Assembly (NCBI RefSeq): GCF_023516505.1
Contig: NZ_JAMGBB010000001.1
Location: forward strand, 1,240,001-1,304,000
Direction of reading: 5' to 3'
From: Sphingomonas brevis
Lineage (GTDB): Bacteria > Pseudomonadota > Alphaproteobacteria > Sphingomonadales > Sphingomonadaceae
Length of the DNA: 64,000 nucleotides
This document shows, one piece after another, positions 25,197-47,591 of the stretch. The position numbers and the translations under genes were made by a program. Positions within the stretch are counted from its first letter, which is position 1; every line of letters starts with the position of its first letter. A model generated the notes under the pieces. The model had not been told where the DNA came from. It saw nothing but the letters and a program-made list of their open reading frames with translations, and made no database searches.

Positions 25197-25817
25197 TTAG
25201 AAGGCCATTCTGGCGGTCACAACTGCCCGCCCGTGGAAGTTCTCGCCCAACTCATGGCGGTTGGTGTCGTACCAGCGAAGGTCGAGCGTCACCTTGGGGA
25301 CGATGGTGGTCGACGCGCCCGCATTGAACGAGGTGTAGTCATCGCCGAATTTGCGGGCGCGGTGGCCGATGTTGGCGAACAGCTTGAACTGCTTGCTGAC
25401 GTCCACCGCCGGGCCGGCCTCCCAATAGAGCGAGCGCTTCGCCGATCCCAGGTCGTCGGGACTGTAGACGACTTGGCCGCGCAGGGTGATGCTGCCGAGC
25501 TTGCGGGTGAGGCCACCGGTGAACTCCCAGCTATGGTCGTCCGTCGGTTCGTGCACCCCGGTCTGGAACTTGTGCGATGCCTGGAGGGTCAGCTGGAAGC
25601 CGCCGACTTCGCGACCGAAGGCGACGAAAACTGCCCCCTCGCCGCCAGCGACGGTCGAGGTAACATTCTTCCACTGTGCGCCCACTTGGAAGTCACCGAG
25701 CTTGACGAACGGCTTCACGATCAGTTGCGGCCCTTCGGTCTGGGCAATGCCCTTCGACATGCCGCGGCTGGCGACGGAAAGCTCAATCCCGGGATCCAGC
25801 GGAGCAAGGTCGAGCAT
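25197..25817 (-). pseudogene. TorF-family putative porin, 5' end lost
   Basis: The 206 codons from the ATG at 25817 encode most of a TorF/Gcw_chp-type outer-membrane beta-barrel: ELSVASRGMSKGIAQTEGPQ opens the barrel, alternating amphipathic strands follow and the chain ends in F (VVTARMAF), as outer-membrane proteins do. What is missing is any signal peptide: upstream in-frame sequence runs into an AATGGG repeat (25842-25871) and reads as repeat-derived residues. A barrel without export signal cannot reach the outer membrane, so the gene is probably inactivated by the repeat's arrival or a deletion. A distant start through the repeat is less likely. Confidence 0.65.
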
Positions 25818-25943: not shown

Positions 25944-27977
25944 TCAGCGCCGGGACTCCAGGTTTAGTGTCGCGGCGATCGTCGCCCAGGGGACATATTT
26001 GAAGTTCTGGTTTTGAACCGGAAGCATGTTTCGACCGTCCTGGGCGATCATTGCCCCGTGCTCAAAACCGGGGCCGAGATTTGCGCTCGAAACGTCCAGT
26101 CCGTCGGTCTCGGATATGCCGTCGATCCCCTTGGCGGGATCAGCGATTACGGAGAATGAGCCGAGATAGGCATTCTCGCCCTCGCGGCGGTAAACCGCAT
26201 AGCTGTTGTTGCCCTGGCTCGAGACGATCAGATAGCCCCGCCCTCCACCGAGATCGTACAGCCCGACGCCTTCCATATCGTCCTTGAGCTTGGGGTTGTC
26301 GGCGATTCTGTCGATCGAGACGGGAGCTGCATTCTTGACCGGCTCGGCGGTTACCCGCCAAAGTCCGATGTCTTCTTCGGCGACATAGAGAGTGCCGCTG
26401 TCGTCATCGACGACGCACCCCTCGGTCTGGCTGCTGAACTTGATATCCCGAACGTGCTTCGCCTGAACTTTTCCGCCGCGGGTCGGAACGAGTTCCCACT
26501 GCCTGACCAGTCCATCGGGGTCGCTGATGAAGACATAGGTTCTTCCGCGTTTGCTGCGGTACATGCACTGGCCATAGGGATCGGACAGGCCAGTCTGCTG
26601 TATGCCGTCCGCGATATTGGTGAGCGCGCCCGTCTCCGTGTCGAGCGAATAAATTGCAATGGCCTTATTCGTCCGATCGCTCGCGGTCACTAGGACAATA
26701 TCGCGCCCGGCCAAGCGATAGTCGGACCTAATGTCGACATTGTTCATCTTTCCATCGGCGGCAAAGAATCGCGACTTACCCTGCATGTCATAGACGTGAA
26801 GGCCGCCTTGCTTGTCGGTGCCAATCACCCAGCTCGCTGCCGGGTTGCTGGAGTTGGCCCAGATTGCCGGGTCGTCGGCGGCGTCAGCTGCGCTTGTGAC
26901 CGGATCGGTCTCAACGCTAGGATGGACGATGGGGAGTGTCGGCGCGACCGCGGCAATCAGCGGTTGAGGCGATCCCGCATTGATGCCGAGTGCCTGCGCG
27001 ATCTTACCGAACGGTACGATCTTGTAATTCGATCCATCCTCGTCACCGATGATGAGCGCGCCCTGATTTGAACCAAGTGGCGCGCTCGTCGCAAAAAGCC
27101 CGCCCGGCTCACGAACGGCTTCGCCAGCCGAGGTTACCGTCAGTGCGCCGACATAGGCGTCGTCTTTCGCATGATCATAGGCGTAAAGCTGGCCCGCCGA
27201 TGCATTGGAGGCGATCAGCCACCTCGCGCTACCGCCGCCATCATATAATGCCAGGCCGCCCACTTCCTCGTTGATCTTGCCCAACCGGACCGCGTCAATC
27301 AGGACAGGCAGGATCTCGGTCTCCGGCTCTGCATTGAAGCGCCAGATTCCGACCGCCTGCTCGGATACATAAAGTTGCCCTGTGGAATCGTCGGCGACGC
27401 AATGCTCGACGGTTGAAGCCACATGTAGCCGCCTCATCAGCTTAGCATCGACGCGGCCAGCGGAAGGCTCGAACAGCAGATATTGATCGATCTCGCCGCC
27501 GTCACCGAGAGCGAAGGCGTAAAGCGAGCCGTCCTGGCTGCTTCGATAGAGGCAGCCTCCTTCGACCGCGATGCCGAGCGGCACGGAGCGGGCGCTGATT
27601 TCCGTGAGAGAGCCGCCCTGCGCACGATAGAAGCGCAGGCTATTGCTGGTGGCATCGGCACCAAGCAGGACAGCAGCGGAGCCAAATCCCGGAAGCGAAC
27701 CATAGCGGACATCGACTCCAACCGCTTCGCCCGCCGGAATCGAGCCGGTGCGCTTTCCTGCACTGTCGTAAATCTCAAGACCGGCCAACTCCGCTGTCCC
27801 GACAATTGAGGAGCTTGGCCCGTCAGTGACGACGACCGCGCGGTTCGCGCCGCCCTGTTGCGTCGTCATCGTAGCCGATGCTTCGACCGACGGAACGGCA
27901 GGTGCATTTTGCGCCGCGACTCCGGTCCCCAAACAAGCGATTCCGGCAATCCCGGCAAGTCCCACCCCAACCCGCAT
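25944..27977 (-). CDS. Secreted tandem-domain beta-propeller phytase (3-phytase type)
   Basis: 677 residues with a signal peptide (about 1-22). The second half (about 352-677) is a complete beta-propeller phytase with DDPAIW (368-373), NNVDIRSDY, EGCVVDDDSGTLYVAEEDIGLWR (519-541, quoted for position), DDMEGVGLY, VSSQGNNSYAVY and ISETDGLDVSS, the calcium- and phosphate-binding stretches of the family. It removes phosphates from Ca-phytate outside the cell. The first half (about 45-345) is a second propeller in which matching acidic residues are changed (VEHCVADDSTG kept, but EVGGLALYD and VREPGGLFAT replace DDMEGVGLYD and ISETDGLDV), so it is probably a degenerate or auxiliary domain. Divergent from the TonB-receptor operon. 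Confidence 0.9.
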   Translation of the reverse strand: MRVGVGLAGIAGIACLGTGVAAQNAPAVPSVEASATMTTQQGGANRAVVVTDGPSSSIVGTAELAGLEIYDSAGKRTGSIPAGEAVGVDVRYGSLPGFGSAAVLLGADATSNSLRFYRAQGGSLTEISARSVPLGIAVEGGCLYRSSQDGSLYAFALGDGGEIDQYLLFEPSAGRVDAKLMRRLHVASTVEHCVADDSTGQLYVSEQAVGIWRFNAEPETEILPVLIDAVRLGKINEEVGGLALYDGGGSARWLIASNASAGQLYAYDHAKDDAYVGALTVTSAGEAVREPGGLFATSAPLGSNQGALIIGDEDGSNYKIVPFGKIAQALGINAGSPQPLIAAVAPTLPIVHPSVETDPVTSAADAADDPAIWANSSNPAASWVIGTDKQGGLHVYDMQGKSRFFAADGKMNNVDIRSDYRLAGRDIVLVTASDRTNKAIAIYSLDTETGALTNIADGIQQTGLSDPYGQCMYRSKRGRTYVFISDPDGLVRQWELVPTRGGKVQAKHVRDIKFSSQTEGCVVDDDSGTLYVAEEDIGLWRVTAEPVKNAAPVSIDRIADNPKLKDDMEGVGLYDLGGGRGYLIVSSQGNNSYAVYRREGENAYLGSFSVIADPAKGIDGISETDGLDVSSANLGPGFEHGAMIAQDGRNMLPVQNQNFKYVPWATIAATLNLESRR

Positions 27978-28043
27978 TTTGGCCGTCTCCGGTCTGTCAC
28001 AGATGCCCGATAGCTAATCGTCACGCATACGCCGTGCAAGGAC

Positions 28044-28126: not shown

Positions 28127-30628
28127 ATGATGCGCAAACTGCAACGCCTGCAGGTGCTTCTCTTTTCGTCCGCGTTGTTCGTGGCGCAAGGAGCGATGGC
28201 TCAGCAAGCGGCTGGCCCGCCCGCGCCCGACCAAGAGCCGGCCGCTGAAACCGCGGCGGAAGGTGACGCCAAGGCTCAAGGTGAGCCTGCCGTTCCTACC
28301 AGCCAGGGTCTGGAGCCCGCTGACGATCGCAGCCTGAGCGACATTGTAGTCGTCGGTTCGCGGATATACCGCAATCGCACCGACACCATCGCCCCGGAGC
28401 TGACGTTCGGTCAGGAGTTCTTCCAGAAGTTCGAACCGACCTCCGTGGGCGACTCCCTGAAGCGCGTCCCTGGCGTGGCCTTTACGAGCGACATTGGCGA
28501 ATATGACGCCCCTGCGCTTCGCGGCCTTGGTGCCGGCTTTACGCAAATCCTCGTCAATGGCCGGCCAATTCCGGGAGCCGGTAATGACCGGTCAGTATTC
28601 GTCGACCGAATCCCCGCCGAAATCATCGACCGGATCGAGATCATCCGGTCGCCTACCGCAGACCTCGACAGCCAAGGCATCGGCGGAACGATCAATATCA
28701 TTCTGAAAGACGGCACAAGCCTACCGCCCGGTCTGATTGCCCGCGCTGGCCTGCTTTTCTATCCGGATGACAATACGTTCAAGGGATCCGGCGCGGTCTC
28801 CTGGTCAGGCCGCAACCAAGCGGAAACCGTGGCCTGGTCGCTGACCGTCGACGCTCAGCAGCGCTACAATCCCAAGCTCGCCCGTCAGGAAGTCTTCGAC
28901 GACAATTCACCCGGATTTGAAGACAGTGAAAATGGCTTGGACCTGTTTCGCCCGTTCGACCGCGACGGCTCAATCGCTGTTGAGCGCACCGAGGAGCTCG
29001 ACACCCGCCGCAGCTTCGACCTGTCATTGAACGGTGACATTACCTTCCTCTTAGGCGAGCAGAGCAAGCTTCGTTTCGATGGATTCCTTATCCGGACGAG
29101 GCGCACGGACACAGAGCAGACCCTGGAGCTTGAACGGCCAGAGGATGATGAAGAAGATCCCATTCTCGACGAGGGCTGGGAAATCGACTCGACCCAAGTG
29201 GCCAAAGAGCCGTTCAAGCAACTCAACTACGGTCTGTCCGGCCTTTATGAAACCAAATGGGGCGACGGAATGAGCGCGGAGGTTCAAGTCCGCTATTCCC
29301 AGTTCGACGAGGAAAGTTCGAATAACACTTATGAGCTGGATGACGATCTGTTCGATCTCGACACATTGGAGGCCGAGGATCTCGAACTGACCGATGATGC
29401 GGAACTGATCGAAATCGATGCCCTCGACATCCTGGATAAGGAGTTTTCCGGCGACGCTTCGATCAAGAAGCAATGGGCCAATTGGAGCATCAAGGCTGGC
29501 ATTGCCGGCAAGCTGAAACGCAGGACGTTCGGCCAGATTATCGGCGAGGATCTCAATGACGACGAAGATGCGTCGATCGTAGAAAGCGAATTCAAATATC
29601 GTGAAAGCCGGCTGGATGGGTTCGCGCTCGCCGAATTTAAGCTTGGCGGTCAGGCCAAGATGCAGGCGGGTGTTCGCGCCGAATACACCAAGTCAAAGCA
29701 GAAGATCCGACAGGACCTGACGGAAGCCGACGAGGAAAGTGCGTCAGCGAACGAGTTCCACCTAAATCCGTCGGTGCATTTCCAGCTGCCCTTTGGAAGC
29801 GGCACCCAGTTCAGGGCGAGCTTGGCGAAGACGGTACGCCGGCCAAACGTCGATCAGGTGGTACCGTTTCAGCTGACCGACGATCCCGAAGATAACGACA
29901 TCACCGTCGGTAATCCCGAGCTCAAGTTCGAAACGTCATGGGGTGTCGACATCGGGCTCGAGCAGCGGCTTCCGCGCGGAGTTGTCGGCGTCAATTTCTT
30001 CTATCGCAAGGTCCGCGATCTCATCTCATTGGTGAATACGGGTGTGCCGGTCTTCCCCGAGGAGGATCCGGATAGCGATGAGGGACGGGCGCGTATCTAC
30101 ACCTATGACAATGTCGGGAACGGCAAGGTCTACGGGTTCGAATTCGACCTTTCGGCGCCGCTAAGCTTTATTGGCCTCGATGATACCGGCGTATTTGCGA
30201 ACTACACCAGGATCTGGTCGAAGCGTACCGAGCCGAACACCGGCATGAAGGTGTCGTTCGATGGTCAACCCAAATATGTCTACAACTTTGGCGTGACCCA
30301 GGAAATTCCGTCCTGGGGCATGTCGGGCGGCTTCAGCTTCCGCAAGCAGGGCAAGTCTGTCAGCACCTTCCTGGGAGAAGAAGAATCCCAAACCTATCAA
30401 GGCAATCTAGAGGCCTATGTCGAAAAGCGGTTCGGCAAGAACTTCGTGCTTCGCCTGAGCGCCAACAACATCCTCGACGCACGCAGCCGCCAGTGGGAGC
30501 GCAACTTCGACGGCGATACCGGCCTTGAAATTATCGAGAACCAGCAGGCTGGCGACGTGGACAATTTCGAGGTTGAGCATGAGGAAACTTCGCCTCAGGT
30601 CATGCTGACTGCTCGACTGGTCTTCTGA
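28127..30628 (+). CDS. TonB-dependent outer-membrane receptor, probably for phytate or inositol phosphates
   Basis: 833 residues with a signal peptide ending AQGAMA. The plug domain (about 70-195) has DIVVVGSR, a typical start, and RLEIIRSP-like DRIEIIRSPTADLDSQGIGGTINI. The barrel ends in a terminal aromatic (ARLVF). It takes ligand across the outer membrane using TonB/ExbBD energy. Two strongly acidic stretches, 336-353 and 402-438, fall in likely extracellular loops and could bind Ca-phytate. It diverges from the phytase gene and is followed after 54 bp by a sugar-phosphate antiporter. The ATG at 28127 or the next codon is the start; GAGGGGGA precedes it. Confidence 0.88.
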   Translation: MMRKLQRLQVLLFSSALFVAQGAMAQQAAGPPAPDQEPAAETAAEGDAKAQGEPAVPTSQGLEPADDRSLSDIVVVGSRIYRNRTDTIAPELTFGQEFFQKFEPTSVGDSLKRVPGVAFTSDIGEYDAPALRGLGAGFTQILVNGRPIPGAGNDRSVFVDRIPAEIIDRIEIIRSPTADLDSQGIGGTINIILKDGTSLPPGLIARAGLLFYPDDNTFKGSGAVSWSGRNQAETVAWSLTVDAQQRYNPKLARQEVFDDNSPGFEDSENGLDLFRPFDRDGSIAVERTEELDTRRSFDLSLNGDITFLLGEQSKLRFDGFLIRTRRTDTEQTLELERPEDDEEDPILDEGWEIDSTQVAKEPFKQLNYGLSGLYETKWGDGMSAEVQVRYSQFDEESSNNTYELDDDLFDLDTLEAEDLELTDDAELIEIDALDILDKEFSGDASIKKQWANWSIKAGIAGKLKRRTFGQIIGEDLNDDEDASIVESEFKYRESRLDGFALAEFKLGGQAKMQAGVRAEYTKSKQKIRQDLTEADEESASANEFHLNPSVHFQLPFGSGTQFRASLAKTVRRPNVDQVVPFQLTDDPEDNDITVGNPELKFETSWGVDIGLEQRLPRGVVGVNFFYRKVRDLISLVNTGVPVFPEEDPDSDEGRARIYTYDNVGNGKVYGFEFDLSAPLSFIGLDDTGVFANYTRIWSKRTEPNTGMKVSFDGQPKYVYNFGVTQEIPSWGMSGGFSFRKQGKSVSTFLGEEESQTYQGNLEAYVEKRFGKNFVLRLSANNILDARSRQWERNFDGDTGLEIIENQQAGDVDNFEVEHEETSPQVMLTARLVF

Positions 30629-30682: not shown

Positions 30683-32026
30683 ATGAGTTCGCTTCTCCGT
30701 TCTTTCGCTACTGGCGCGGAAACTCCCCGAATCTCGGACCAGGCGGACATTGATCGCCTGTTCCGGCGCAATCGCATCCGGGTGATGCTGGCAATCACCA
30801 TTGGCTACGGCCTGATTTACATGTGCCGGCTGGCGATCGGCGTGGTGAAGAAGCCGCTGATCGACCAGGGTATTTTCACTCCCACCGAGTTGGGAACGAT
30901 CGGTTCGGCGCTTTTCTACACTTATGCGTTGGGCAAGCTGACCAACGGCTTCCTGGCCGACCATGCCAATGCCCGTCGCTTTCTGGCTGCGGCCTTCCTG
31001 CTTACGGCAATTTGCAACATCCTCATGGGCTTTACGACGACAGTGCTGGCGGCCTCGATTATCTGGGGATTGAACGGCTGGTTCCAAAGCTTCGGAGCGC
31101 CGGGCGGCGTAGTGGCCATGACTGCTTGGTTCTCGAACCGCGAACGGGGGCGCGCATATGGCGTGTGGAGCACGGCTCACTCCATTGGCGAAGGTCTCAC
31201 CTTCCTGGTCGTTGGTGGGCTGGTTTCCTACCTTGGCTGGCAGTGGGGATATTGGGGTCCAGGCCTGATCGGGATTGTAACCGCGGTGGGCGTATTCGCG
31301 CTGATGCAGGACAGGCCGCAAACTCTCGGCCTTCCGTCGGTCAATGAATGGAAGAAAGATCAATATTCCGAGACGAGCGAGACGAGCGCGCGAAGCACGC
31401 TTGCTCTCCAATTCTCGATCCTGAAAATCCCGGCGATCTGGGTGCTCGCGCTGGCCAGCGCAACGACCTACATCACCCGTTACGGTATCAACAGCTGGGG
31501 CATCCTCTATCTGCAGGAAGCCCGTGGCTATTCGCTGACGATGGCGGGAACGCTGCTGATGATCAGTACGCTGGCCGGTATTGCCGGCGCAGTGGCGTTC
31601 GGCTTCACGTCAGACAAGCTGTTTGGCGCCAGGCGACCGCCAGCAAACTTGCTTTTCGCAATACTTGAGCTGATCGGCCTCGCGATCATTTTCTTCGGTC
31701 CGACCAATACTCCGATGCTGATTGTCGGAATGCTCCTGTTCGGCATGGGACTGACCGGCCTCGTGACGTCCCTGGGCGGCCTCTTCGGGGTCGATATTGC
31801 ACCCAAGCGTGCTGCAGGAGCGGCGATGGGCGTGGTTGGAATCTTCAGCTACATCGGCGCTGCAATCCAGGAGCAGGTCTCGGGCATATTGATCGACCAG
31901 AATATGGTGATCGCCGGCGGCACTCGCATATACGATTTCGGGCCGGTGATTTGGTTCTGGATCGGCTCATCCGTCGTTTCGATGCTGCTTGCAGCAAGTC
32001 TCTGGCGGACTCGTCTCCGCGACTGA
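30683..32026 (+). CDS. Organophosphate:phosphate antiporter (GlpT/UhpT family, MFS)
   Basis: 447 residues from the ATG at 30683, with GGAG before it. Twelve membrane spans. The OPA-family marks are YGLIYMCRLAIGVVKKPLI, LGTIGSALFYTYALGKLTNG, WGLNGWFQSFGAPGGVVAMTAWFS and DRPQTLGLPSV. Family members exchange a phosphorylated sugar or polyol for phosphate across the inner membrane. Set between a phytase-linked TonB receptor and a phosphatase, with an inositol monophosphatase in the facing operon, the best guess is uptake of inositol monophosphate; glycerol-3-phosphate or hexose-phosphate remain possible. Confidence 0.85.
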   Translation: MSSLLRSFATGAETPRISDQADIDRLFRRNRIRVMLAITIGYGLIYMCRLAIGVVKKPLIDQGIFTPTELGTIGSALFYTYALGKLTNGFLADHANARRFLAAAFLLTAICNILMGFTTTVLAASIIWGLNGWFQSFGAPGGVVAMTAWFSNRERGRAYGVWSTAHSIGEGLTFLVVGGLVSYLGWQWGYWGPGLIGIVTAVGVFALMQDRPQTLGLPSVNEWKKDQYSETSETSARSTLALQFSILKIPAIWVLALASATTYITRYGINSWGILYLQEARGYSLTMAGTLLMISTLAGIAGAVAFGFTSDKLFGARRPPANLLFAILELIGLAIIFFGPTNTPMLIVGMLLFGMGLTGLVTSLGGLFGVDIAPKRAAGAAMGVVGIFSYIGAAIQEQVSGILIDQNMVIAGGTRIYDFGPVIWFWIGSSVVSMLLAASLWRTRLRD

Positions 32027-32049
32027 TCATGATCGGAAGGGCAATCTCG

Positions 32050-33315
32050 ATGCGTGGCTTTATGTTGGGCGCGGCCCTGTTTCTCGCTGGTTGCACAACC
32101 GTTCCGCCTAACACTGTCTCGCCTCAGGGATCGCGGCCATATGCGATGCTGTTGTTCGGTGATCATGGCTATGATCTCGACTACCTCGAGGCGGACGAGC
32201 GCAACCCGCCTTTGACACTTGAGCAGGCAATTGCGTTGGAGCGTGAAGAGTGGGCCGAGGACAAGCGGCCGCCCGCAGAGTTCGCCCCCTCAGCCATGAT
32301 CAAGCTCGCCGACACTGGGGGTTACGTGGCAGCCAGCGGCATGATTCCGGTCGCAAAGGCAATGCGCAGCTATTGTCAGACCGCGCAGTGCGACTCTGCC
32401 GTCATGCTTGGCGACAACATCTACCCCAACGGACCGACCGGAGGCGCCGACGGCGTCAGCGACTCCAAGCGCTTCGACGAAATCCTGCTCAAGCCGTACA
32501 AGGATTTCGGTAGCATCGCGCCGGATTTCCGGATCTATGCGACTTTGGGAAACCACGACTGGCGGACGTCACGAGAGGCCGCGCTGGCCGAGGTCCGCTA
32601 TCTGGGTAGCACCAAGCCATTTTACATGGATGGGCTCTTCTATCGGGTGAGCCCGCCGGGCCGGCCCGACGTCGAAATCTTCGTCCTGGATACTGAAGTG
32701 CTCCTGGCTGGCGAGACCGTCTATGAGGCCGAGCTGGCCGATGACGGAAGCGAACTTCCGGGTAGCTCGCTCGAAGAGCCGGAACCGTGGACCAAGCCGC
32801 AGAACGAGGGCGAGCGGAACATGGTCGCCTGGCTCGAGCAGTCGCTTCGCCAATCAACCGCGCGTTGGAAGATCGTCATGGGGCACCATCCGATCTGGTC
32901 GTCGGCAGGGAGCAAATTCCAGCAGGCACGAGTCCTTCGCAGGCTGATCCTGCCCACGATGTGTAAATATGCCGACATGTACCTGGCAGGGCATGAGCAT
33001 ACGCTCGAGCTGCACACCGACAGCTGCGCGAAAGCGGTACCTGGCAGCAACCTTCCGCCATTGCCGCAAATTGTGTCAGGCGCAGCAGCGAAGCAGCGGC
33101 CGGTCAACAGTGCTTTCATGGCTTACCAGGCCAGCAACAATCCCGAGCTCAAGACCAGCTACGCGAAAGGCCTTATCTGGGGCTACGTCCACCTGACGCT
33201 TGACGGCGACCAGGCTACGGCGCGCGTATTCACAACTCCGAACGATGGAAGCGGCGCCAACGTCCATGAAGCCACCGAGCATTACGCGCGGCGGACTGGA
33301 ATCTTGCCGCGCTAG
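32050..33315 (+). CDS. Purple-acid-phosphatase-like lipoprotein (metallophosphoesterase)
   Basis: 421 residues from the ATG at 32050, with GGAAGG before it. The signal ends LFLAGC, so it is lipidated at cysteine 16. Metal motifs in order: GDHGYD (37-42), GDNIYPNG (121-128), GNHDW (167-171), MGHHPIWS and GHEHTLE. The GDN-x-Y/GNHD/GHHP/GHEH set is that of mammalian-type tartrate-resistant (purple) acid phosphatases. As a periplasmic or surface lipoprotein beside a phytase it probably dephosphorylates the lower inositol phosphates the phytase leaves behind. Its stop overlaps that of the converging TonB receptor by four bases. Confidence 0.83.
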   Translation: MRGFMLGAALFLAGCTTVPPNTVSPQGSRPYAMLLFGDHGYDLDYLEADERNPPLTLEQAIALEREEWAEDKRPPAEFAPSAMIKLADTGGYVAASGMIPVAKAMRSYCQTAQCDSAVMLGDNIYPNGPTGGADGVSDSKRFDEILLKPYKDFGSIAPDFRIYATLGNHDWRTSREAALAEVRYLGSTKPFYMDGLFYRVSPPGRPDVEIFVLDTEVLLAGETVYEAELADDGSELPGSSLEEPEPWTKPQNEGERNMVAWLEQSLRQSTARWKIVMGHHPIWSSAGSKFQQARVLRRLILPTMCKYADMYLAGHEHTLELHTDSCAKAVPGSNLPPLPQIVSGAAAKQRPVNSAFMAYQASNNPELKTSYAKGLIWGYVHLTLDGDQATARVFTTPNDGSGANVHEATEHYARRTGILPR

Positions 33316-35330
33316 CCTTCTCCCGCGCCGAATGCCCGGCGAACGCTCAAAGTGAAAATCGGATCGGTGTTGATACGCCTTGTTTCGATCGATTCCAGTA
33401 TATCAAACGTCCTCGGGCCTAAATATTTCTCGCGCTCGTCGGTCAGGTCCTTCCACGTGACATTCTCGATCTCGGCACGGATCCTCCACTGGCTCGTCGG
33501 GCGAAACTCGACGTGCATTGCAAGGGCAGTTCCGGTGTGTTCGCGCCGGACCTCGTCGAATCGAAATTTGCGTTCCTTCTCCGAAAGGGACGCCTCCAAC
33601 CCCCAGCTCCACTTCCCGCCGGGGAGATCGTGAGTGAAGCGAAACTCGCCCTCGAATGGCTTGTCTTCCGAGATGGACCGCTTCGCGCCCGTGACCGGGT
33701 CGGTGACGCGACTCTTCAGAAAGGTAAGGTCGGCCCTGATCTCCATCCCCTTGAGTCCGATCCGGTCAAGCGGCACCGTCAGTTCGGCCCGCAAGCTGGT
33801 CCGGTTGCCCCTTCCGATATTGCCGACCGCATCGAAGAACTCTCCGCCACTTTCGACGACGACGCGGTCGATGACATCGTCGATCCTTTCGCGGCGGAGG
33901 GTAAGTGTCAGAGCGCCACTGTCCCAGAACCGCTGTTCGACCAATGCCGTAAAGGACCAGGTCGTCGGCGGTGTCAGCGATGGGGCACCCGCCACAACAT
34001 CGTCGCGATCCAGCTCGACCGATGCGACAAAGTCCTCGAAGTCGAGTTGGGCCGCCTCGCGCTCCAGGGTGGCCTGGACACGCGTGCGGCGATTGTCCCA
34101 CGAAACGCGGAGCCGCGGCTTCCAGAAAAGGAAATCATCATCTTGCAAGGAATCGCCGGTTGAACGGATCGCGGAATATTCGGCACGCAGGCTCGTCTCC
34201 AACGCCAGAGTCCTGCTTGCTTGCCAGTTGGCGCCGAGTACGGCTTCGGCGCGTCGTTCGCTGACATCAACGTCGGAACCGGTGATTGGTACCGGCACGC
34301 CCCCGGCCGTCAGTTTAGCATCACCGGTCAGTTTATTGAGTGCGCCTTCGATGCTTCCAAAGAAATGCGCACTGCCATGGTCTTGGCGATATTCCGCGCG
34401 AGCCAGCGTTTCGCTGCTGCGCGTGTTTTCAGAAAAAAGTTCGTCCTCTTCTGCCGCGTCGGCATCGAGCCATTCCGTCCGCTGAACCAGGATAGCTTCC
34501 AGCGTGCCCCCGCCTACCGGCCGCTCATATTGGGCGCCAACTTCCGCGCTCCAGATCCTTTCTCGCTCCGGCGCCGCAATTTCGATTCCATCTTCGGTGG
34601 AGCGAATTGTCTCTCGCGTGACGGCTCGCGACCCGCTTAAATTGGTTACGAGCTCGCCGTCGCCAAGTGTAATATTGTGCTCGGCGCTCGCTGATAATGT
34701 CCGAACATATTCCCGCTCGTCACGGCCAATGACTTCAGAGACAGCCTCGTCTGGGTCGGTTTCCACAATTGCTCCGGCACCGGAATCTTCGTCTACTTCC
34801 GTCGCTAATTCGATCGCGGTCTCCAGTCGGCTCCGGGCTCCCTCGCGCGAATATTCGATCCGGGCGTCAGGTTTGATTCCGATCTCATCAGAGGCGGTGA
34901 TGCCGCCCGATGCGGCACCGGAACTGGCCGCCTGCTGTCGTCGGACAATATTGGCGACGAGGTCGAACCCGCCGGTTGCGGCACCTTTGGTTCCGCCGCG
35001 GATCAACTCGATCCGAAGGACCGAAGCGGCCGGAATGCGCTTCAGCATTTGCTCCAGGCTGTCCTGCTTTCCCGAAGGAGTCCTTCCGTCAAACAGGATA
35101 TTCCCTCTTGAGCCTGTGTAGCCCCGAACGTCGTCATCCACTTCTATCAACTCGAACCCCGGCAGCTTGCGAACCATGTCGTAGGCGTCGGCGGGCTTTG
35201 AGGAGGCGAAGAAGTCGGGAGCGAAGACTTGTGTCCCGGCAGCGTCTGGGGCCTGAGCATGGACTGCGCCGCAGATTAGCAGCGACGCAACTAGCAGCTT
35301 TGTCTGGGCAATGGTGTGAAGTTTAGCCAT
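33312..35330 (-). CDS. TonB-dependent receptor at the end of the inositol operon
   Basis: 672 residues, small for the family, with a signal peptide (about 1-25, ending GAVHAQ). Plug-domain features are DAYDMVRKLPGFELIEVDDDVRGYTGSRGNILFDG (quoted for position, about 47-82) and SVLRIELIRGGTKGAATGGFDLVANI. A 22-strand-type barrel follows, with acidic loops (for example TEVDEDSG, DADAAEEDELF). Its ATG lies inside the end of the inositol monophosphatase gene (ATGGCTAA), so it is translationally coupled to inositol catabolism. Likely ligand: inositol phosphate or inositol. Confidence 0.83.
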   Translation of the reverse strand: MAKLHTIAQTKLLVASLLICGAVHAQAPDAAGTQVFAPDFFASSKPADAYDMVRKLPGFELIEVDDDVRGYTGSRGNILFDGRTPSGKQDSLEQMLKRIPAASVLRIELIRGGTKGAATGGFDLVANIVRRQQAASSGAASGGITASDEIGIKPDARIEYSREGARSRLETAIELATEVDEDSGAGAIVETDPDEAVSEVIGRDEREYVRTLSASAEHNITLGDGELVTNLSGSRAVTRETIRSTEDGIEIAAPERERIWSAEVGAQYERPVGGGTLEAILVQRTEWLDADAAEEDELFSENTRSSETLARAEYRQDHGSAHFFGSIEGALNKLTGDAKLTAGGVPVPITGSDVDVSERRAEAVLGANWQASRTLALETSLRAEYSAIRSTGDSLQDDDFLFWKPRLRVSWDNRRTRVQATLEREAAQLDFEDFVASVELDRDDVVAGAPSLTPPTTWSFTALVEQRFWDSGALTLTLRRERIDDVIDRVVVESGGEFFDAVGNIGRGNRTSLRAELTVPLDRIGLKGMEIRADLTFLKSRVTDPVTGAKRSISEDKPFEGEFRFTHDLPGGKWSWGLEASLSEKERKFRFDEVRREHTGTALAMHVEFRPTSQWRIRAEIENVTWKDLTDEREKYLGPRTFDILESIETRRINTDPIFTLSVRRAFGAGEG

Positions 35331-36123
35331 CTACCGGGGCGATCGCGCCAACCAGCTCGGAATGAAGTTGCGGGACCGAGGCAAGCACGGTTCCGTTGTC
35401 GAGAACCAGCGGCCGGCCGAGCGTGTCGGTGACGATGCCGCCTGCCTCTTCGACGATCACCACGCCGGCGGCGATGTCCCACGCGTTTACGCTTTGCTCC
35501 CAATAGGCGTCGAACCGGCCGCAAGCGACATAGGCCATATCGACGGCGGCGGCACCGAGCCGCCGGATGCCGGACACCCGCGGTGTCAATCGCGCCATCT
35601 CGGTTGCGAATTGCTCGTGGCGAGGCTTGCTGGCGAATGGAATTCCAACGCCGAGTACCGCCTCGATCATCTTATTCCGGGAAGACACTCGGATCGGCTG
35701 GTCGTTGAGGTGCGCTCCAAGGCCGCGCTCCGCCCAGAATGTTTCTTCTAGCAGGGGAATGTGCGTAACGCCTGCGACGGCCTTTCCCTGATGAGCGAGG
35801 GCGATGTTTACGGCGAAAAGCGGCAAGCCGATAAGGAAGTTCGTCGTGCCGTCGAGCGGATCGACAATCCAGACATTGTCGGGATCCGCACCCGGAACCA
35901 GTCCGCCTTCCTCGCCAAGAAAGCCATAGTCCTGACGAAAGGACGACAGTCGCTCGCGCACAGTCTGCTCGGCGCGCAGGTCCGCCTCGCTGAACATGTC
36001 GTCGAGGCCCTGCTTATGGCGGATCTCAAGTTGCGCGATGTTGGCAAAGTCTCGCTTCAGGCCTTCACCGGCCGCGAACGCCGCTTCAAGCATTGCAGCA
36101 ATGAGTGGGGAGTGATTTGCCAT
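35323..36123 (-). CDS. Inositol monophosphatase family protein
   Basis: 266 residues with the full IMPase metal-site set: GEEGG (70-74), WIVDPLDGTTNF (85-96) and the C-terminal WDIAAGVVIVEEAGG. No signal peptide, so cytoplasmic. It would hydrolyse inositol monophosphate to myo-inositol and phosphate. In many bacteria suhB stands alone with an RNA-related role; placement inside the iol operon, five bases after iolB and overlapping a TonB receptor, points to a catabolic job here. Confidence 0.9.
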   Translation of the reverse strand: MANHSPLIAAMLEAAFAAGEGLKRDFANIAQLEIRHKQGLDDMFSEADLRAEQTVRERLSSFRQDYGFLGEEGGLVPGADPDNVWIVDPLDGTTNFLIGLPLFAVNIALAHQGKAVAGVTHIPLLEETFWAERGLGAHLNDQPIRVSSRNKMIEAVLGVGIPFASKPRHEQFATEMARLTPRVSGIRRLGAAAVDMAYVACGRFDAYWEQSVNAWDIAAGVVIVEEAGGIVTDTLGRPLVLDNGTVLASVPQLHSELVGAIAPVDG

Positions 36124-36128: not shown

Positions 36129-36929
36129 CTATTTCCGAACGATCCAGTCATGGGTGGGATCATTACGGAAGATCCAGTGCCGGTCCGCCCCTGCCATCAC
36201 GTTCAGATAATAGAGATCATAGCCATGGGGAGCGCCCGTCGGGTGATAACCTCGGGGAACCATGACCACGTCGCCGTCCTCAACGGCGATCGTCTCGTCG
36301 ATCGACCGGTCGTCGGTATAAACGCGCTGGATTGCGAAGCCCTGCGGCGGATTGAGCCGATGATAGTAAGTTTCCTCAAGCGCGGTCTCTTCGCCATCGG
36401 TAGCGGTATCGTGCTTGTGCGGCGGATAGCTCGACCAGTGTCCGCCCGGCGTAATAACTTCGACTACAAGAAGGCTTTCGGCGGGCTCGGTTTCGGGGAG
36501 GATGTTTCGGACGAAGCGCTGATTGGTGCCTTGACCCCGCACTTCGCGACTCATTCTAGCAGGATCGATGAGCCTTGGCTCACCCCGGCCAATCCCGGGA
36601 GCCGAGCCGATCGCGAGCTCGACCGGCGTTTCGGCGGTGACCTCATATTCGATGCCCGCAGGCACGTAGACGGCCGCGGGCGGTATGTCGTCGAACACGC
36701 TGGTCCGCGTTCCGGCGCGCTCGACGGAGAGATCGCCGGCGCGAATTGAAGCTGTGCCGGCAAGGACGACAAGGCAGGCTTCCCTGTCCCGCGCACCGCC
36801 TGCATGACGTTGCCCCGGTTCGAGCTTCACGGCCTGAAATCCGACGTGCGACCAACCCGCGGACTCCGGCGTCACCTCGAGCACCGATCCGTCGGGAGCG
36901 GGCGTGTGGGGCCTGACACGAAGCGTCAT
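36129..36929 (-). CDS. iolB: 5-deoxy-glucuronate isomerase
   Basis: 266 residues, standard IolB length, with a bicupin fold. The metal-binding region is HWSSYPPHKHDT and the later EETYYHRLNPPQGFAIQRVYT and VMVPRGYHPTGAPHGYDLYYLNVMAG, all diagnostic. It converts 5-deoxy-D-glucuronate to 2-deoxy-5-keto-D-gluconate. The ATG overlaps the iolE stop (ATGA), so iolE and iolB are coupled. Confidence 0.95.
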   Translation of the reverse strand: MTLRVRPHTPAPDGSVLEVTPESAGWSHVGFQAVKLEPGQRHAGGARDREACLVVLAGTASIRAGDLSVERAGTRTSVFDDIPPAAVYVPAGIEYEVTAETPVELAIGSAPGIGRGEPRLIDPARMSREVRGQGTNQRFVRNILPETEPAESLLVVEVITPGGHWSSYPPHKHDTATDGEETALEETYYHRLNPPQGFAIQRVYTDDRSIDETIAVEDGDVVMVPRGYHPTGAPHGYDLYYLNVMAGADRHWIFRNDPTHDWIVRK

Positions 36930-37825
36930 TGGACCGCCTCCAGTCTTGCAAATCGGGCGTGAGTTCGAAGCGTTCCCAGTCCGATCTTTGCAAACGCTCG
37001 GGGATCAGCCAGCGCTGGATCCTGCTCCGCTTCGACGATTACCCAGCCAGAATAGCCTTTCTTCGAAAGTGCATCGAACAACGGCTGGAAATCGAGATCG
37101 CCGTCCCCCGGAACCGTGAACATTCCCTGGAGCACGCCATCCAGGAAGCTGCTGCCACCACCCAATATGGTTTCAAAGACGCGACGGCGAACGTCCTTGC
37201 AATGCACATGCGCAACGCGCTGCGAGTAGCGGTTTAGAATCGAGACAGCATCAATTCCGCCAAGAGAGGCGTGGCCGGTGTCGAGTGTCAGGCCGACGGC
37301 ATCACCCGTAACTTGCAGGAAGCGATCCAGCTCCTCCCCACTCTCGACCACCGTTCCGAGATGGTGGTGATAGGCCAGCCGCAATCCTTCGCTCTCAATG
37401 AAATCGGCGACCTTGGTCATCCGCTCGCCGAACGCATTCCATTCGTCGTCGTTCAGATCCGGAGATTGGTTGAGCGCGCGACTGCGGTCCCCGTGAATTG
37501 CATTGCTGGTTTCGGCGATGATGAACACCTTGCTGCCCATCGCCTGGAGCAGTTCAAGGTGACGACGCAGCTTTTCGATTTCGGCATCGGCGCCCTGCAC
37601 TAGGAGGTTGGAGCTATACCAGCCGCCAACGAGTGCGAGCCCATAGCGGCCGAGCAGCGCCTGAAGTTCTGCAGGGTCGCGCGGAAATTTGCCGCCCAGC
37701 TCTACGCCCGCGAAACCAACCTCCTGAACATCGCGGAGTACGCTTTCCAGCGGCGTATCCCCGCCCAGCTCAGGCATGTCGTCGTTAATCCAGGCAATCG
37801 GGCTAACGCCAAAGCGGATGGTCAC
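36926..37825 (-). CDS. iolE: Myo-inosose-2 dehydratase
   Basis: 299 residues of the xylose-isomerase-like TIM-barrel family. Typical IolE stretches are FGVSPIAWINDDMPELGGDTPLE (start), LAYHHHLGTVVES, LTLDTGHASLGGIDA, HVHCKDVR and VPGDGDLDFQPLFDAL. It dehydrates 2-keto-myo-inositol to 3D-trihydroxycyclohexane-dione using a divalent metal. The start is a GTG at 37825 sharing bases with the iolD stop (GTGA), which fixes it firmly. Confidence 0.95.
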   Translation of the reverse strand: MTIRFGVSPIAWINDDMPELGGDTPLESVLRDVQEVGFAGVELGGKFPRDPAELQALLGRYGLALVGGWYSSNLLVQGADAEIEKLRRHLELLQAMGSKVFIIAETSNAIHGDRSRALNQSPDLNDDEWNAFGERMTKVADFIESEGLRLAYHHHLGTVVESGEELDRFLQVTGDAVGLTLDTGHASLGGIDAVSILNRYSQRVAHVHCKDVRRRVFETILGGGSSFLDGVLQGMFTVPGDGDLDFQPLFDALSKKGYSGWVIVEAEQDPALADPRAFAKIGLGTLRTHARFARLEAVQ

Positions 37826-39642
37826 CGCCGTACCTTTCCAATCTGATCATCATAGGATTTGCGAGCCTCTGCCACGTTCTTGCGCTTGGAGACTTCGGCG
37901 ATCGCGACATCCCACCACGCGCCGCCGGCGTCGGTGCTCCGTTCCGGATCGGTGTCGATCACGACCACATAGGTCTGGTCGGCGGCCAAGGCGCGGCCAA
38001 GCGCCGCTTCAAGCTCGGCGATGGAGCTTGCCTTCACCGCAGTTGCTCCCAACGCCTTGGCATGGGCGACAAAGTCGATCCGTGACGTAGCGGGCAAGAG
38101 ATTGTTGAACCGCTCGCCAGCTGTAGCCTGTTGCAAACGATTGATGCACCCGAAACCGTGATTGTCGAGCAGGACGATGATGAGCTTTGCGCCGATCATG
38201 ACCGAGGTCGCGATCTCGGAATTGAGCATCAGGTAGCTACCGTCGCCCAGCATGACGACGACTTCGCGATCCAGCGCGGCGAGCTTTACTCCGAGGCCAC
38301 CGGCAATTTCGTAACCCATGCAGGAATAGCCATATTCGAGGTGGTAGCCGTCGCTGGTTCTGGACCGCCAAAGCTTGTGCAGCTCGCCCGGAAGGCCGCC
38401 CGCAGCTCCGACGACGATGGCGTTTTCCGGAACCGTTCGCCAAACGGCACCGATCACCTGGGCATCAGAAGGCAGTTCTTCGTTCCCGGCGGCTGTTACC
38501 GTTTCCCAGGATGCGTTCCAGGCTGCGACGGCACCAGTGTAGCGATTTCGATCTTTTGGCCGCCACTCCCCGAGCTCATCCGCCAAGGCATCGAGCACCA
38601 GCTTGGCGTCAGCCACCAGCGCGAATGCACCGCGCTTGTGCGCGTCGTGAGGGGAAACATTGACCTGAACAAAGGTCGCCCGAGGGTTCTCGAAAAGTGC
38701 CCAGGACCCGGTCGTAAAATCCTGCAGGCGCGTGCCGATCCCGATGACCAGGTCTGCTTCAGCAGCTGCTGAGTTTGCGGCGCTGGAGCCCGTGACGCCG
38801 ATGCTTCCTAGTGACTGCGGATGATCCCACGGCAAGCTGCCCTTACCGGCCTGGGTTTCGGCAACGGACATGCCGAACGCCGATGCAAAACTCGCCAATT
38901 CGTCCGAAGCGATGGAATAATGGACACCGCCACCGGCAATCAGGAGCGGTCTCGCGGACTGCCGGATGGCTTCCGCCAGACGCCTGATGTCCTGACGCTC
39001 CGGCGCGGCTCGGCGAACGCGCCAGACGCGTCTTTGGAAGAAGCTGTCAGGATAGTCGAAGGCCTCGGCCTGCACGTCCTGGCAAAAGGCAAGGGTCGCT
39101 GGACCGCAGGTCACCGGGTCCAACATGGTTGCGAGAGCACGCGGAAGAGAATCGAGCAGTTGCTCCGGCCTTACGATCCTGTCGAAATAGCGCGAAACGG
39201 GGCGGAAGCTGTCATTAGCCGACACTGTGCCGTCGCCGAAATCCTCGACTTGCTGAAGCACGGGGTCAGGCCGGCGGCTGGCATAGACATCTCCCGGCAG
39301 GAACAGGACGGGCAGCCGGTTCACATGAGCGAGCGCAGCGGCCGTGACCATGTTGGTCGCGCCCGGTCCGATCGACGACGTGCAAACCATCGCCCGTTGC
39401 CGCCGCATCTGCTTGGCGTAGGCAATCGCCGCATGGGCCATCGCCTGCTCATTATGGGCCCGGTAGGTCGGGAGCAGGTCCTGGACGTCGGTCAGTGCCT
39501 CACCCAGACCGGCAACGTTCCCATGCCCGAAGATCGCCCAGACGCCGGCAAAATAGGGAACTTCCGTCCCTTCGAATTCAATATACTGGTTGGCCAGGTA
39601 ACGAACGCACGCTTGAGCTGCCGTAAGCCGGATCGTGCTCAT
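37822..39642 (-). CDS. iolD: 3D-(3,5/4)-trihydroxycyclohexane-1,2-dione hydrolase (ThDP enzyme)
   Basis: 606 residues from the ATG at 39642, which overlaps the iolC stop (ATGA); reading further upstream adds only iolC-derived sequence. It is a thiamine-diphosphate enzyme of the acetolactate-synthase superfamily: catalytic glutamate near RAHNEQAMAHAA, and the ThDP motif GDGSYLMLNSEI with NHGFGCINRLQ. IolD opens the ring to 5-deoxy-D-glucuronate. The N-terminal FAGVWAIFGHGNVAGLGEAL is characteristic of IolD over other ThDP enzymes. Confidence 0.95.
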   Translation of the reverse strand: MSTIRLTAAQACVRYLANQYIEFEGTEVPYFAGVWAIFGHGNVAGLGEALTDVQDLLPTYRAHNEQAMAHAAIAYAKQMRRQRAMVCTSSIGPGATNMVTAAALAHVNRLPVLFLPGDVYASRRPDPVLQQVEDFGDGTVSANDSFRPVSRYFDRIVRPEQLLDSLPRALATMLDPVTCGPATLAFCQDVQAEAFDYPDSFFQRRVWRVRRAAPERQDIRRLAEAIRQSARPLLIAGGGVHYSIASDELASFASAFGMSVAETQAGKGSLPWDHPQSLGSIGVTGSSAANSAAAEADLVIGIGTRLQDFTTGSWALFENPRATFVQVNVSPHDAHKRGAFALVADAKLVLDALADELGEWRPKDRNRYTGAVAAWNASWETVTAAGNEELPSDAQVIGAVWRTVPENAIVVGAAGGLPGELHKLWRSRTSDGYHLEYGYSCMGYEIAGGLGVKLAALDREVVVMLGDGSYLMLNSEIATSVMIGAKLIIVLLDNHGFGCINRLQQATAGERFNNLLPATSRIDFVAHAKALGATAVKASSIAELEAALGRALAADQTYVVVIDTDPERSTDAGGAWWDVAIAEVSKRKNVAEARKSYDDQIGKVRR

Positions 39643-41591
39643 AGAGCAGCTCCGCACTCTGCTCGTGCCGAGCGCCAACCCTCTACAAGTGCGGAAAGCC
39701 TCGATGCCATCATATCTGTTGCTTCGTCGTCGCCGATCCGGTCGGAGAGCCAGTCGGTCGCAACGTCGTGGAATATGGAACGGCCGACTGCAAACCCTTT
39801 GATCAACGGGAACTGTGCGGCAGTTTTGAACGACGCGATAAGGTCAGGAATTGGGGCAGACAGCCCCAACATCAGGATACCCCGGCAAAGCGGATCGCGC
39901 TTCTGAATGACGTCGACGATGTTCGCCCACGCAGCTTGATCGCTGGACGGCTCCAGCTTCCACCAGTCCGGATGGATACCCAGATCGTAGAGCCGATCCA
40001 ATGCGCGCGCCGTGGTTTCCTCGTCGACCGTCAAATCAGCAGGAGGAATGATCTCCAGAAGCAGCTCATGTCCGGTCTGACGGCACGCCGCGAAGAGGCG
40101 AAGCAATTGGCGTTCCTGCCGCTCCCTCAGTTCCGGGGGATCGTCAGGATGATAATGTGCCAGACATTTGACGACGTGAGTTACCGGCCAACCTGTAAGC
40201 TCAATCCCAACGTCTTCGTTTCCTTGGAATTCGACTGGCCGTGATCTCGGCGTTTCGATGGGCCGGCCGATCCAATAGTTGCGGTCCGCGAGTTTCGTAA
40301 GCGCCTCAAATCCGAAGCGATCGTCAATAAGCATTCCGAAACCGCTATCGCTGGCCGCGATGCGATCGAGCGCATCGAGCCCCAGCAGCTTGAACTGGCT
40401 GACGCGGGCTTGGGAACAGCCTAGCTCTTGGATCAGCTCATCGAACTGGCTGCGATGATCGATCGCGAGGACCGACAGTTCTGGATATTCGGTCCGCCTC
40501 GTCGTCGCCCAGTGCAATTGCTCGAGGTCATGATCTTCACGGAGCCGGAATGGGAGATCGAACCGGCTTAAGAAGCTCTCGAGTTCGATGCTCGTTGGCA
40601 TCGCCGGGGCGCAGCCGTGCCGAGAAACGACAATTGCGCCACACGCATTGGCGAGGCGGCAGCACTGTCCGACGTCCTGGCCTCTGAGCCATCCGGACAG
40701 GAATCCGGCCATGAATGCGTCGCCGGCACCAAGAACGTTGAAGACCTCAACGGGGAAGCCCGGCACCAACAGTCCGTCTTCGACCTCCGTCGGAATTTCT
40801 CCCGGGAAGGCAGCACAGCCTTCGGCTCCGAGCTTGCAAACCAACAGGGCTTCGGTGTGCCGCCGTACCGCCCGGATTGCGCTGATCGTATCGTCATGGC
40901 CACCAAGGATGCGCATTTCCTCTTCGGTACCGACGATCAGGTCGCAATCGGGCAGGATGGACTGCAGTCGCTCCGACACTTCCGCTGACGCGACATAGCG
41001 GTTTTCACCAAAATCTCTTCCTGTAAGGCCCCAAAGCACCGGCCTATAGTCGACATCGAAGACGACCTTCCCACCGCTTGACTTGGTCAATTCGATCGCT
41101 CTGCGAGATGCGTCGTAAACGGAAGGCGTCGAAAGGTGGGTCCCGTTTACGAGTACCGCCTTGGACGAACCGATAAACTCCTCGTCGATGTCACTCGTAT
41201 CGAGCGCCATGTCCGCGCAATTTTCCCGGTAGAAGACAAGCGGAAATTGCTCGCGGTCGCGAATGCCCAAAATGACCAGTGCAGTCAGTCGTTCGGGGTC
41301 GGACTTGGCCCACCCTGTCTCAACGCCCTCGCGCTCGAGCTGCTCGGTAATGAAGCGGCCCATATGGTCTGCGCCGACACGGGTTATGAGTGCAGTCTTG
41401 AGTCCAAGTCGCGCAAGGCCGATTGCCGTATTGGTCGGGCTTCCACCGACCGATTTGGCAAACGAGCCCATGTCTTCAAGCCGTCCTCCGACTTGCTGGC
41501 CGTATAGGTCGACGCTCGACCGACCAATGGCAACCAGGTCCAATGATTTGGTCAAAGCTGTCAGCCGCCCCCAATTGCTCCTTTGAAACAA
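39639..41591 (-). CDS. iolC: Bifunctional 5-dehydro-2-deoxygluconokinase / DUF2090 aldolase
   Basis: About 650 residues in two parts. Residues 18-335 are a PfkB sugar kinase (IGRSSVDLYG, GGSPTNTAIGLARLG, and GAGDAFMAGFL with the catalytic Asp). Residues about 340-640 are a DUF2090 domain, predicted to be the 2-deoxy-5-keto-gluconate-6-phosphate aldolase (IolJ role), with LAIDHRSQFDEL, FKLLGLDAL and FAVGRSIF. Together they would phosphorylate DKG and split it to DHAP and malonate semialdehyde. The start is uncertain: TTG at 41591 has no ribosome-binding site, while an AAAGGAG lies just inside; a TTG at 41555 is an alternative. Confidence 0.92.
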   Translation of the reverse strand: MFQRSNWGRLTALTKSLDLVAIGRSSVDLYGQQVGGRLEDMGSFAKSVGGSPTNTAIGLARLGLKTALITRVGADHMGRFITEQLEREGVETGWAKSDPERLTALVILGIRDREQFPLVFYRENCADMALDTSDIDEEFIGSSKAVLVNGTHLSTPSVYDASRRAIELTKSSGGKVVFDVDYRPVLWGLTGRDFGENRYVASAEVSERLQSILPDCDLIVGTEEEMRILGGHDDTISAIRAVRRHTEALLVCKLGAEGCAAFPGEIPTEVEDGLLVPGFPVEVFNVLGAGDAFMAGFLSGWLRGQDVGQCCRLANACGAIVVSRHGCAPAMPTSIELESFLSRFDLPFRLREDHDLEQLHWATTRRTEYPELSVLAIDHRSQFDELIQELGCSQARVSQFKLLGLDALDRIAASDSGFGMLIDDRFGFEALTKLADRNYWIGRPIETPRSRPVEFQGNEDVGIELTGWPVTHVVKCLAHYHPDDPPELRERQERQLLRLFAACRQTGHELLLEIIPPADLTVDEETTARALDRLYDLGIHPDWWKLEPSSDQAAWANIVDVIQKRDPLCRGILMLGLSAPIPDLIASFKTAAQFPLIKGFAVGRSIFHDVATDWLSDRIGDDEATDMMASRLSALVEGWRSARAECGAAL

Positions 41592-42489: not shown

Positions 42490-42507
42490 ATTCCCTCGCT
42501 CGAGTTC

Positions 42508-47388: not shown

Positions 47389-47490
47389 TCTCGTTTCCCC
47401 TCGGCCGCTACGCGTTCCTGTCGCTCGTAGTCGAAGGTGCCCGCTATGGCTTGGGTCGGCAAGGGGATCGAAGGATTCGGGCGCCGCAGC

Positions 47491-47522: not shown

Positions 47523-47591
47523 GCGAGAGCAACGGCCGACAGAAGCTGGGCGGGGCGAACCGCGCCTCAGCTTCATACCTGGCCAGCCCGA

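Follow-up and report, generated by a model that had tools for sequence, protein, structure and literature searches.

In a stretch of 64,000 nucleotides from Sphingomonas brevis (contig NZ_JAMGBB010000001.1, positions 1,240,001 to 1,304,000), called the window in what follows, a gene at 30683-32026 on the forward strand encodes a carrier of 447 amino acids related to the OPA family. We propose that it is an inositol monophosphate:phosphate antiporter, i.e., that it brings inositol monophosphate into the cell and most likely moves inorganic phosphate out in return, and we give this reading a probability of roughly 0.8; for the isomer and the direction of transport we rely on inference. That the antiporter carries inositol monophosphate was first put forward in a sequence-only reading of the window. 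The proposal is supported by the partner genes found directly downstream of related carriers, which encode an inositol monophosphatase (IMPase) or a TM0415-type kinase, by control loci in which neither occurs, and by an enrichment of IolR-type operators. The comparative evidence makes it a well-supported prediction and lends it far more weight than the window by itself does.

Results

Partner genes of related carriers

GTDB species genomes were scanned with the sequence of the carrier alone, and the best 80 of 376 stretches, with identities of 53-95%, were taken as relatives; neighbouring genes played no part in the choice of these loci. Neighbours were counted by tblastn in flanks of at most 10 kb, and many contigs end sooner, so that presence counts are lower bounds. 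A gene is called directly downstream when it lies on the same strand within 1.2 kb of the carrier. The survey counts include closely related genomes and are uncorrected for relatedness. The loci come from Pseudomonadota, Acidobacteriota, Ignavibacteriota, Verrucomicrobiota, Fidelibacterota, Bacteroidota, Planctomycetota and KSB1.

The gene directly downstream of the carrier encodes an IMPase in 40 of the 80 loci and a TM0415-type kinase in 21. More rarely the position is taken by a PhoD-like phosphatase (5/80) or, in one locus each, by an MPP-like metallophosphatase, a histidine acid phosphatase (HAP) phytase or a second OPA gene, and in 11 of the 80 no recognised gene follows. The identity of the downstream IMPase is at least 49% in 39 loci and 33%, a weak match, in the remaining one (L080). 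When the flanks are considered as a whole, IMPase is present in 48 loci, the kinase in 21, both in none and neither in 11; these 11 are not the same as the 11 with an unrecognised downstream gene, and four of them (L055, L072, L073 and L076) end less than 3 kb downstream of the carrier. The tie between the carrier and its partners is not absolute. Inositol catabolic genes are found in the flanks of 59 of the 80 loci, as iolB/C/D/E in 49 and as the Thermotoga-type iolN/iolO in 10, and a phytase of either kind in 31. An IolA-like dehydrogenase lies directly upstream (at most 400 bp away, same strand) in 37 of the 76 loci where this could be tested.

As a control, OPA homologs with E values of at most 1e-40 were collected from 299 genomes of the phylum; of the 32 places found, 3 belong to the clade and 29 do not. 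For 27 of these 29 there was a locus (L092-L118, at most 40% identity, flanks of at most 1.5 kb, two of them shortened), and within those flanks similarity to IMPase, kinase, iol or phytase genes was found in none of the 27. In the clade, an IMPase or a kinase lies within 1.5 kb of the carrier in 62 of the 80 loci. Two outer homologs, L124 (40% identity, 17 kb read) and L125 (46%, 14.9 kb read), likewise have no IMPase, kinase, iol or phytase gene in the sequence read, and L125 has receptor-like matches upstream.

These counts bear on the possibility that the carrier is an ordinary antiporter of glycerol-3-phosphate, hexose phosphate or phosphoglycerate, which stands in inositol loci by chance. 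Characterised relatives are known to carry such substrates, and the carrier has both the OPA fold and the phosphate-binding residues. However, it falls under the NCBIfam cut-offs of all four corresponding models (243.4 bits against 632.55 for GlpT, 157.6 against 497 for UhpT, 264.5 against 564 for UhpC and 161.1 against 750 for PgtP). Furthermore, inositol catabolic genes accompany it in most loci and an IMPase or kinase follows it directly in 61 of 80, while neither partner is near any of the 27 control carriers. Together with the position of the clade in the tree (see below), this makes chance placement of an ordinary antiporter quite unlikely.

When the order is searched genome by genome, the carrier or a near relative is found at 1e-80 in 7 of 246 genomes, among them the genome of the window and that of the outer homolog L125 (G057). 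Beta-propeller phytase occurs in 6 of these 7 genomes (all but G057), compared with 85 of 246 overall. A two-domain phytase could be read from the table in 12 of the 246 genomes; the carrier is present in 6 of these 12, compared with 1 of the remaining 234. In neither comparison has relatedness been removed.

Alternation of two unrelated enzymes

The IMPase, a PF00459 phosphatase, and the kinase, which is of PfkB type, are unrelated, and the compound common to both is inositol monophosphate. When unrelated enzymes alternate in one slot and share inositol monophosphate, the swap points to this compound as the substrate of the carrier. On a quick tree of 81 carriers, on which the changes of partner were counted, the label changes between IMPase and kinase at least three times, and at least twice when the weak match in L080 is left out. 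The kinase accompanies the carrier in non-proteobacterial phyla and in two separate proteobacterial groups, one of them Steroidobacteraceae, and the IMPase in other proteobacteria.

TM0415 of T. maritima converts inositol and pyrophosphate to inositol monophosphate and does not use ATP or ADP, and its type is recognised by five signature residues together with an RXGRGD motif (PMC5931981, in the excerpts consulted). The carrier-linked kinases match TM0415 (1vk4) at 6.2e-45 with the kinase of L067 as query and at 1.4e-43 with that of L021, a locus of Povalibacter uvarum. They resemble it further in that the motif is present in all 20 readable sequences among the 21 loci where a kinase adjoins the carrier (the kinase of L045 is cut): RSGRGD, K171, R229 and R232 are kept in 20/20, position 221 holds F in 19 sequences and W in the other, and at position 266 there are 14 M, 5 L and a single V. 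They differ from TM0415 in their acceptor residues, M76, L78, L89 and S116; positions 78, 89 and 116 are L, L and S in 21/21, as in homolog No. 49 of PMC5931981. Locus L070 holds a second kinase (16683-17660), with RTGRGD and, by alignment, with N, V and L at positions 78, 89 and 116, which adjoins an IolG-like gene; no second carrier was seen in that stretch.

A genome-wide search at 1e-20 finds the kinase in 16 of 16 kinase genomes (representing 16 of the 21 loci), in 0 of 29 IMPase genomes and in 0 of 5 genomes with neither partner. With the kinase of L021 as query, none was found at 1e-25 in 398 genomes of the phylum, a search set that contained no positive genome; the genome of L021 was found positive with another query. 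In the phylum of L070, the kinase is confined to that locus's own genome, out of 194. We considered whether the kinase genomes have a pyrophosphate economy of their own and dismissed this, since the membrane pyrophosphatase PF03030 is near-universal in both groups (21 of 21 kinase genomes and 28 of 29 IMPase genomes, 49 of 50 together) and does not discriminate between them.

The standard iol pathway starts from free inositol. In loci with this pathway a kinase that runs forward would oppose catabolism, and a backward direction fits: inositol monophosphate and phosphate would be converted to inositol and pyrophosphate. That the kinases beside the carrier run backwards in the cell is a possibility to which we give slightly less than even odds. 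The swap is a more surprising lead than the reading of the carrier itself. In the parts of PMC5931981 consulted, TM0415 running backwards is not discussed, and the word "reverse" appears once, for another enzyme. The same excerpts give a Michaelis constant (Km) of TM0415 for inositol of 12 mM, and homolog No. 49 seemed to form three inositol monophosphates, none of them Ins(1)P; the authors came to doubt inositol as the true acceptor and suggested that it may be some other compound. Of the 4 homologs assayed, 2 were inactive on 14 acceptors, including inositol. In T. maritima, TM0415 sits in an inositol operon, and no carrier is mentioned beside it in this portion of the account (PMC5931981), which argues against a strict tie between carrier and kinase.

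IolR-type operators

An IolR-linked palindrome, GGAA-N6-TTCC, has been described in Caulobacter (PMC2597717, in part). We scanned the 150 bp that precede the beginning of the carrier match in the 79 loci with enough sequence and compared the result with 100 dinucleotide shuffles. A perfect palindrome is present in 11 of the 79, where the shuffles give a mean of 0.29 and a maximum of 3, and one with at most one mismatch in 26 of the 79, where they give a mean of 5.37 and a maximum of 12. Some of the 11 loci are close kin, and the carriers of L023 and L024 are identical. The perfect palindromes are distributed as 8/47 in the IMPase group, 3/21 in the kinase group and 0/11 in the group with neither.

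Three perfect palindromes occur in the window, compared with 1.09 expected, and one of them (42574-42587) is notable by its position only: it lies between the iolR candidate and iolG. A palindrome with one mismatch precedes iolC.

Fold and substrate site of the carrier

The carrier matches the Pfam family MFS_1 at 1.7e-48, and its best sequence match in the PDB is GlpT (1pw4) at 3.7e-57; the identities to E. coli GlpT, UhpT and UhpC are 31, 23 and 30%. The AlphaFold model, built from 42 sequences, namely the carrier of the window and those of 41 relatives out of the 80, has a mean pLDDT of 89.5. In structural comparison (VIA-align) the closest structure is SLC37A4, 9w1r (Z 47.9, root mean square deviation 1.9, 379 residues aligned), and the six top rows are all SLC37A4. 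GlpT 1pw4 stands at rank 24 (Z 38.5, root mean square deviation 2.9, 412 aligned), and many other MFS carriers lie at Z 36-41. An MFS fold nearest to that of GlpT and G6PT characterises the OPA (GlpT/UhpT/SLC37) family, and the carrier has such a fold. From this relationship, organophosphate:phosphate antiport is the predicted activity.

A residue alignment and a tree were used to compare the same 42 carriers. The phosphate-site residues R49, R266, Y46, Y81, H166 and Y263 are kept in 42/42 and K85 in 41/42. R49, present in all 42, is the phosphate-site arginine of transmembrane helix 1 (R45 in GlpT, R28 in G6PT). In modelling of human G6PT, W118, W138, Y233 and H366 are placed around glucose (PMC13046256, consulted in part); mapped by hand on an alignment to 9ll0, these positions are A139, Y159, S259 and M382 in the carrier. 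The phosphate residues are thus kept while the glucose-side residues are changed, from which it follows that the phosphate end of the site is retained and the sugar end differs.

Several other polar residues are conserved, E170, Q278, S259, S389 and Q396 in 42/42 and N88 in 41/42. E170 and N270 (34/42), one helix turn from H166 and R266, respectively, may face the substrate. Most of the polar residues of the clade are also present in L124 and L125, and they therefore mark a wider subfamily rather than specificity for inositol phosphate alone. The clade and these two outer homologs are separated from E. coli GlpT, UhpT and UhpC with a tree support of 1.0. PgtP was examined as the nearest known relative, as the 40% homolog L124 adjoins PgtABC-like genes when judged by eye, and was rejected at a PgtP score of 174.4 bits against the cut-off of 750.

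The same residues bear on whether the carrier moves another inositol compound, i.e., free inositol, an inositol bis- or trisphosphate or glycerophosphoinositol. In its favour, the recurrent context consists of inositol genes, the subfamily has extra polar residues (E170, N88, S259, Q278, S389 and Q396), and phytase alone may leave higher phosphates. On the other hand, the phosphate arginines are invariant in 42/42, which speaks against free inositol. The partner enzymes use the monophosphate, the IMPase by what is known of its family and the kinase according to PMC5931981, as excerpted. No glycerophosphodiesterase cluster was seen among the recurrent neighbours that were annotated, which are part of the total. 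We consider another inositol compound an unlikely substrate.

The protein could also be a UhpC-like sensor of external inositol phosphate rather than a carrier. UhpC gives the best of the NCBIfam scores, still well under its cut-off, and a cluster of two-component histidine kinases occurs in 23 of the 80 loci, a count made on imperfect gene calls. However, IMPase, PhoD-like and receptor genes usually stand between this histidine kinase and the carrier (L015 is an exception), a PepSY-like protein accompanies the histidine kinase, and the tree splits the clade from UhpC. A sensor is therefore very improbable, and transport of inositol monophosphate remains the preferred reading.

Organisation of the locus in the window

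The carrier gene starts with an ATG at 30683 behind a purine-rich stretch, 54 bp past the end of a gene for a TonB-dependent receptor (28127-30628, forward strand), in which Pfam recognises plug and barrel. It ends 23 bp before the start, picked by eye at 32050, of a metallophosphatase lipoprotein (32050-33315, forward strand; Metallophos 6.3e-11) with a lipobox-like LAGC and the motifs FGDHG, GDNIY, GNHD, GHHP and GHEH. No other clear OPA gene occurs in the genome: the carrier scores 258.6 bits, compared with at most 72.7 for other matches. Divergent from the TonB receptor gene is that of a two-domain beta-propeller phytase (25944-27977, reverse strand), in which PF02333 is matched in two stretches of one frame (2.9e-126) and the N terminus looks signal-like by eye. 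A frame of 206 amino acids (25197-25817, reverse strand) adjoins the phytase and appears barrel-like by eye.

Convergent to the receptor, carrier and lipoprotein genes is an iol operon on the reverse strand in which iolC, iolD, iolE and iolB are followed by the IMPase gene and then by that of a second TonB-type receptor. Its first two genes, both with provisional starts, encode a kinase/aldolase fusion, IolC (39639-41591; NF047869, 781.9 bits), and IolD (37822-39678; TIGR04377, 915.6 bits). They are followed by the myo-inosose-2 dehydratase gene iolE (36926-37825; TIGR04379, 393.1 bits) and the 5-deoxy-glucuronate isomerase gene iolB (36129-36929; TIGR04378, 337.7 bits), all four scores being above cut-off. 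The IMPase gene (35323-36123) starts 5 bp past the end of iolB. The product is one of three PF00459 proteins of the genome (218.4 bits), has SuhB (3luz, 7.9e-65) as its best PDB match, and contains the metal-site and catalytic motifs EEGG, DPLDGTTNF and WDIAAG; it scores below the cut-offs of all NCBIfam equivalogs, including HisN and inositol-1-monophosphatase. By eye it has no signal peptide, in line with a cytoplasmic enzyme, and hydrolysis of inositol monophosphate is its presumed activity, as that of its family. The sequence-only reading had noted both arrangements, a carrier between a phytase-linked receptor and a phosphatase and an IMPase without signal peptide inside the iol operon, and the reading frames and families bear them out.

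The second TonB-type receptor gene (33312-35330) overlaps the end of the IMPase gene with its start by 8 bp and gives a barrel match only (29.8 bits, cut-off 27). Relatives of this receptor recur near the carrier in other loci, as a cluster in 25 of them, where a two-component system and a small PepSY-like protein are often present as well. Upstream of iolC lie an RpiR-family regulator, a candidate IolR (41626-42537, reverse strand; HTH_6 and SIS), an inositol dehydrogenase-like gene, IolG (42606-43619, forward strand; GFO_IDH_MocA families), and a second such gene (43612-44601, forward strand), which was judged from its sequence by eye and has relatives in other loci. An ABC sugar importer with ATPase, permease and binding protein (44622-47532, reverse strand; binding protein by Pfam, the other two by eye) likely has free inositol as its substrate, given its position. 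Neither an iolA-like gene of the relatives' type nor a TM0415-like kinase was detected in the window by a search that did detect other queries there.

Some related loci are arranged differently. In Sphingopyxis (L049, L050, L053, L055 and L056) and in L126 the slot after the carrier is filled by the PhoD-like phosphatase, and an IMPase lies further on in convergent orientation, adjoining a phytase in L049, L050, L053 and L056. The sequence of L055 ends early, and no IMPase was seen there. Tandem carriers occur in KSB1 loci (L068:8566-11347, L071:3-2644 and L073:9592-11913). An AppA-like histidine acid phosphatase is present in L017 (17624-18961; 233.4 bits, cut-off 585), L018 and L057, and no beta-propeller phytase was seen in those stretches.

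Discussion

The proposed pathway would operate as follows. The phytase and the lipoprotein phosphatase would degrade phytate to inositol monophosphate outside the inner membrane, with the TonB receptors perhaps helping in its supply. The carrier would then take in inositol monophosphate in exchange for phosphate, and the cytoplasmic IMPase, or in relatives a reversed kinase, would free inositol for consumption by the iol enzymes, which are assigned by family membership. The phosphate released may leave through the carrier and so balance the cycle, as the sequence-only reading proposed and as the known mechanism of the family makes plausible. If the antiport is strict, carbon is taken up without any net gain of phosphorus, in keeping with regulation of the iol type: the route would mainly supply carbon and be induced together with the iol genes, and would not serve to acquire phosphate. 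An ABC importer possibly for free inositol in the same cluster also speaks for the proposal.

A number of observations weigh against it. RK on transmembrane helix 1 is a hallmark of the OPA family, and K46 forms a gate salt bridge with D274 in GlpT (PMC13046256, in the part consulted). In the clade the motif is RL, with L50 in 42/42 compared with K in 25 of 26 controls, and the counterpart of D274 is S271 in 38 of 42 carriers, compared with D in 25 of 26 controls. Because the gate pair of the OPA family is lost, phosphate exchange is less certain, and because of the altered motif we file the carrier as a variant subfamily related to OPA and not as a standard member. The tree support for the 42 carriers to the exclusion of L124 and L125 is low, at 0.41. 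In the window, the carrier and the IMPase are encoded on opposite strands, 3.3 kb apart and in separate operons, and no convincing operator precedes the receptor-carrier operon, the nearest candidates being at 28036 (1 mismatch) and 28066 (2). Eleven of the 80 related loci have neither partner, and for four of these (L060, L063, L066 and L079) the full 10 kb of flank was available at either end; the IMPase matches of L057 (37%) and L080 (33%) are weak and may be other PF00459 enzymes. Finally, degradation by beta-propeller phytases often ends at inositol trisphosphates, and inositol 2-phosphate is a poor substrate for IMPases, so that the path to a usable monophosphate is only partly explained.

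It is instructive to compare the carrier with known systems. With GlpT of E. coli it shares the fold and the phosphate-binding residues, and with glpQ-glpT the placement of a hydrolase gene beside that of the importer of its product. GlpQ of E. coli is periplasmic. The carrier differs from GlpT by its low identity and by L50 and S271 in place of K46 and D274, and among its annotated neighbours there is no GlpQ but phytase, IMPase and iol genes. Human SLC37A4/G6PT is the best structural match, and its R28, Y25, Y60 and K64, described for phosphate (PMC13046256, in part), correspond to R49, Y46, Y81 and K85; the carrier has 21-30% identity to SLC37A4/G6PT and UhpT/UhpC and differs from them in the broken RK motif. 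The window also resembles the myo-inositol module of Caulobacter crescentus with its iol genes, RpiR-type regulator, ABC importer and GGAA-N6-TTCC. In the portion of PMC2597717 consulted, no OPA carrier or IMPase is mentioned for that module, and an HlyB-family transporter is suggested as a possible inositol phosphate carrier. Our search of the open-licence PMC literature found no bacterial inositol-phosphate importer of the OPA family, and no route by which the products of phytate breakdown cross the bacterial inner membrane turned up in the open-licence literature.

Phytate is a major organic phosphorus store in soil and feed. If the proposal is true, a dedicated inositol monophosphate carrier would extend, by one class of substrate, the range of a family that has a human disease gene among its members, and phytase, receptor and inositol catabolism would be joined into one pathway. 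The role of the TM0415-type pyrophosphate kinases also becomes directly testable. If these kinases do run backwards, they would take over from the IMPase and conserve some of the energy of the ester in pyrophosphate, which the proton-pumping pyrophosphatase could use, and this direction would explain both the poor Km of TM0415 for inositol and the formation of several positional isomers by homolog No. 49.

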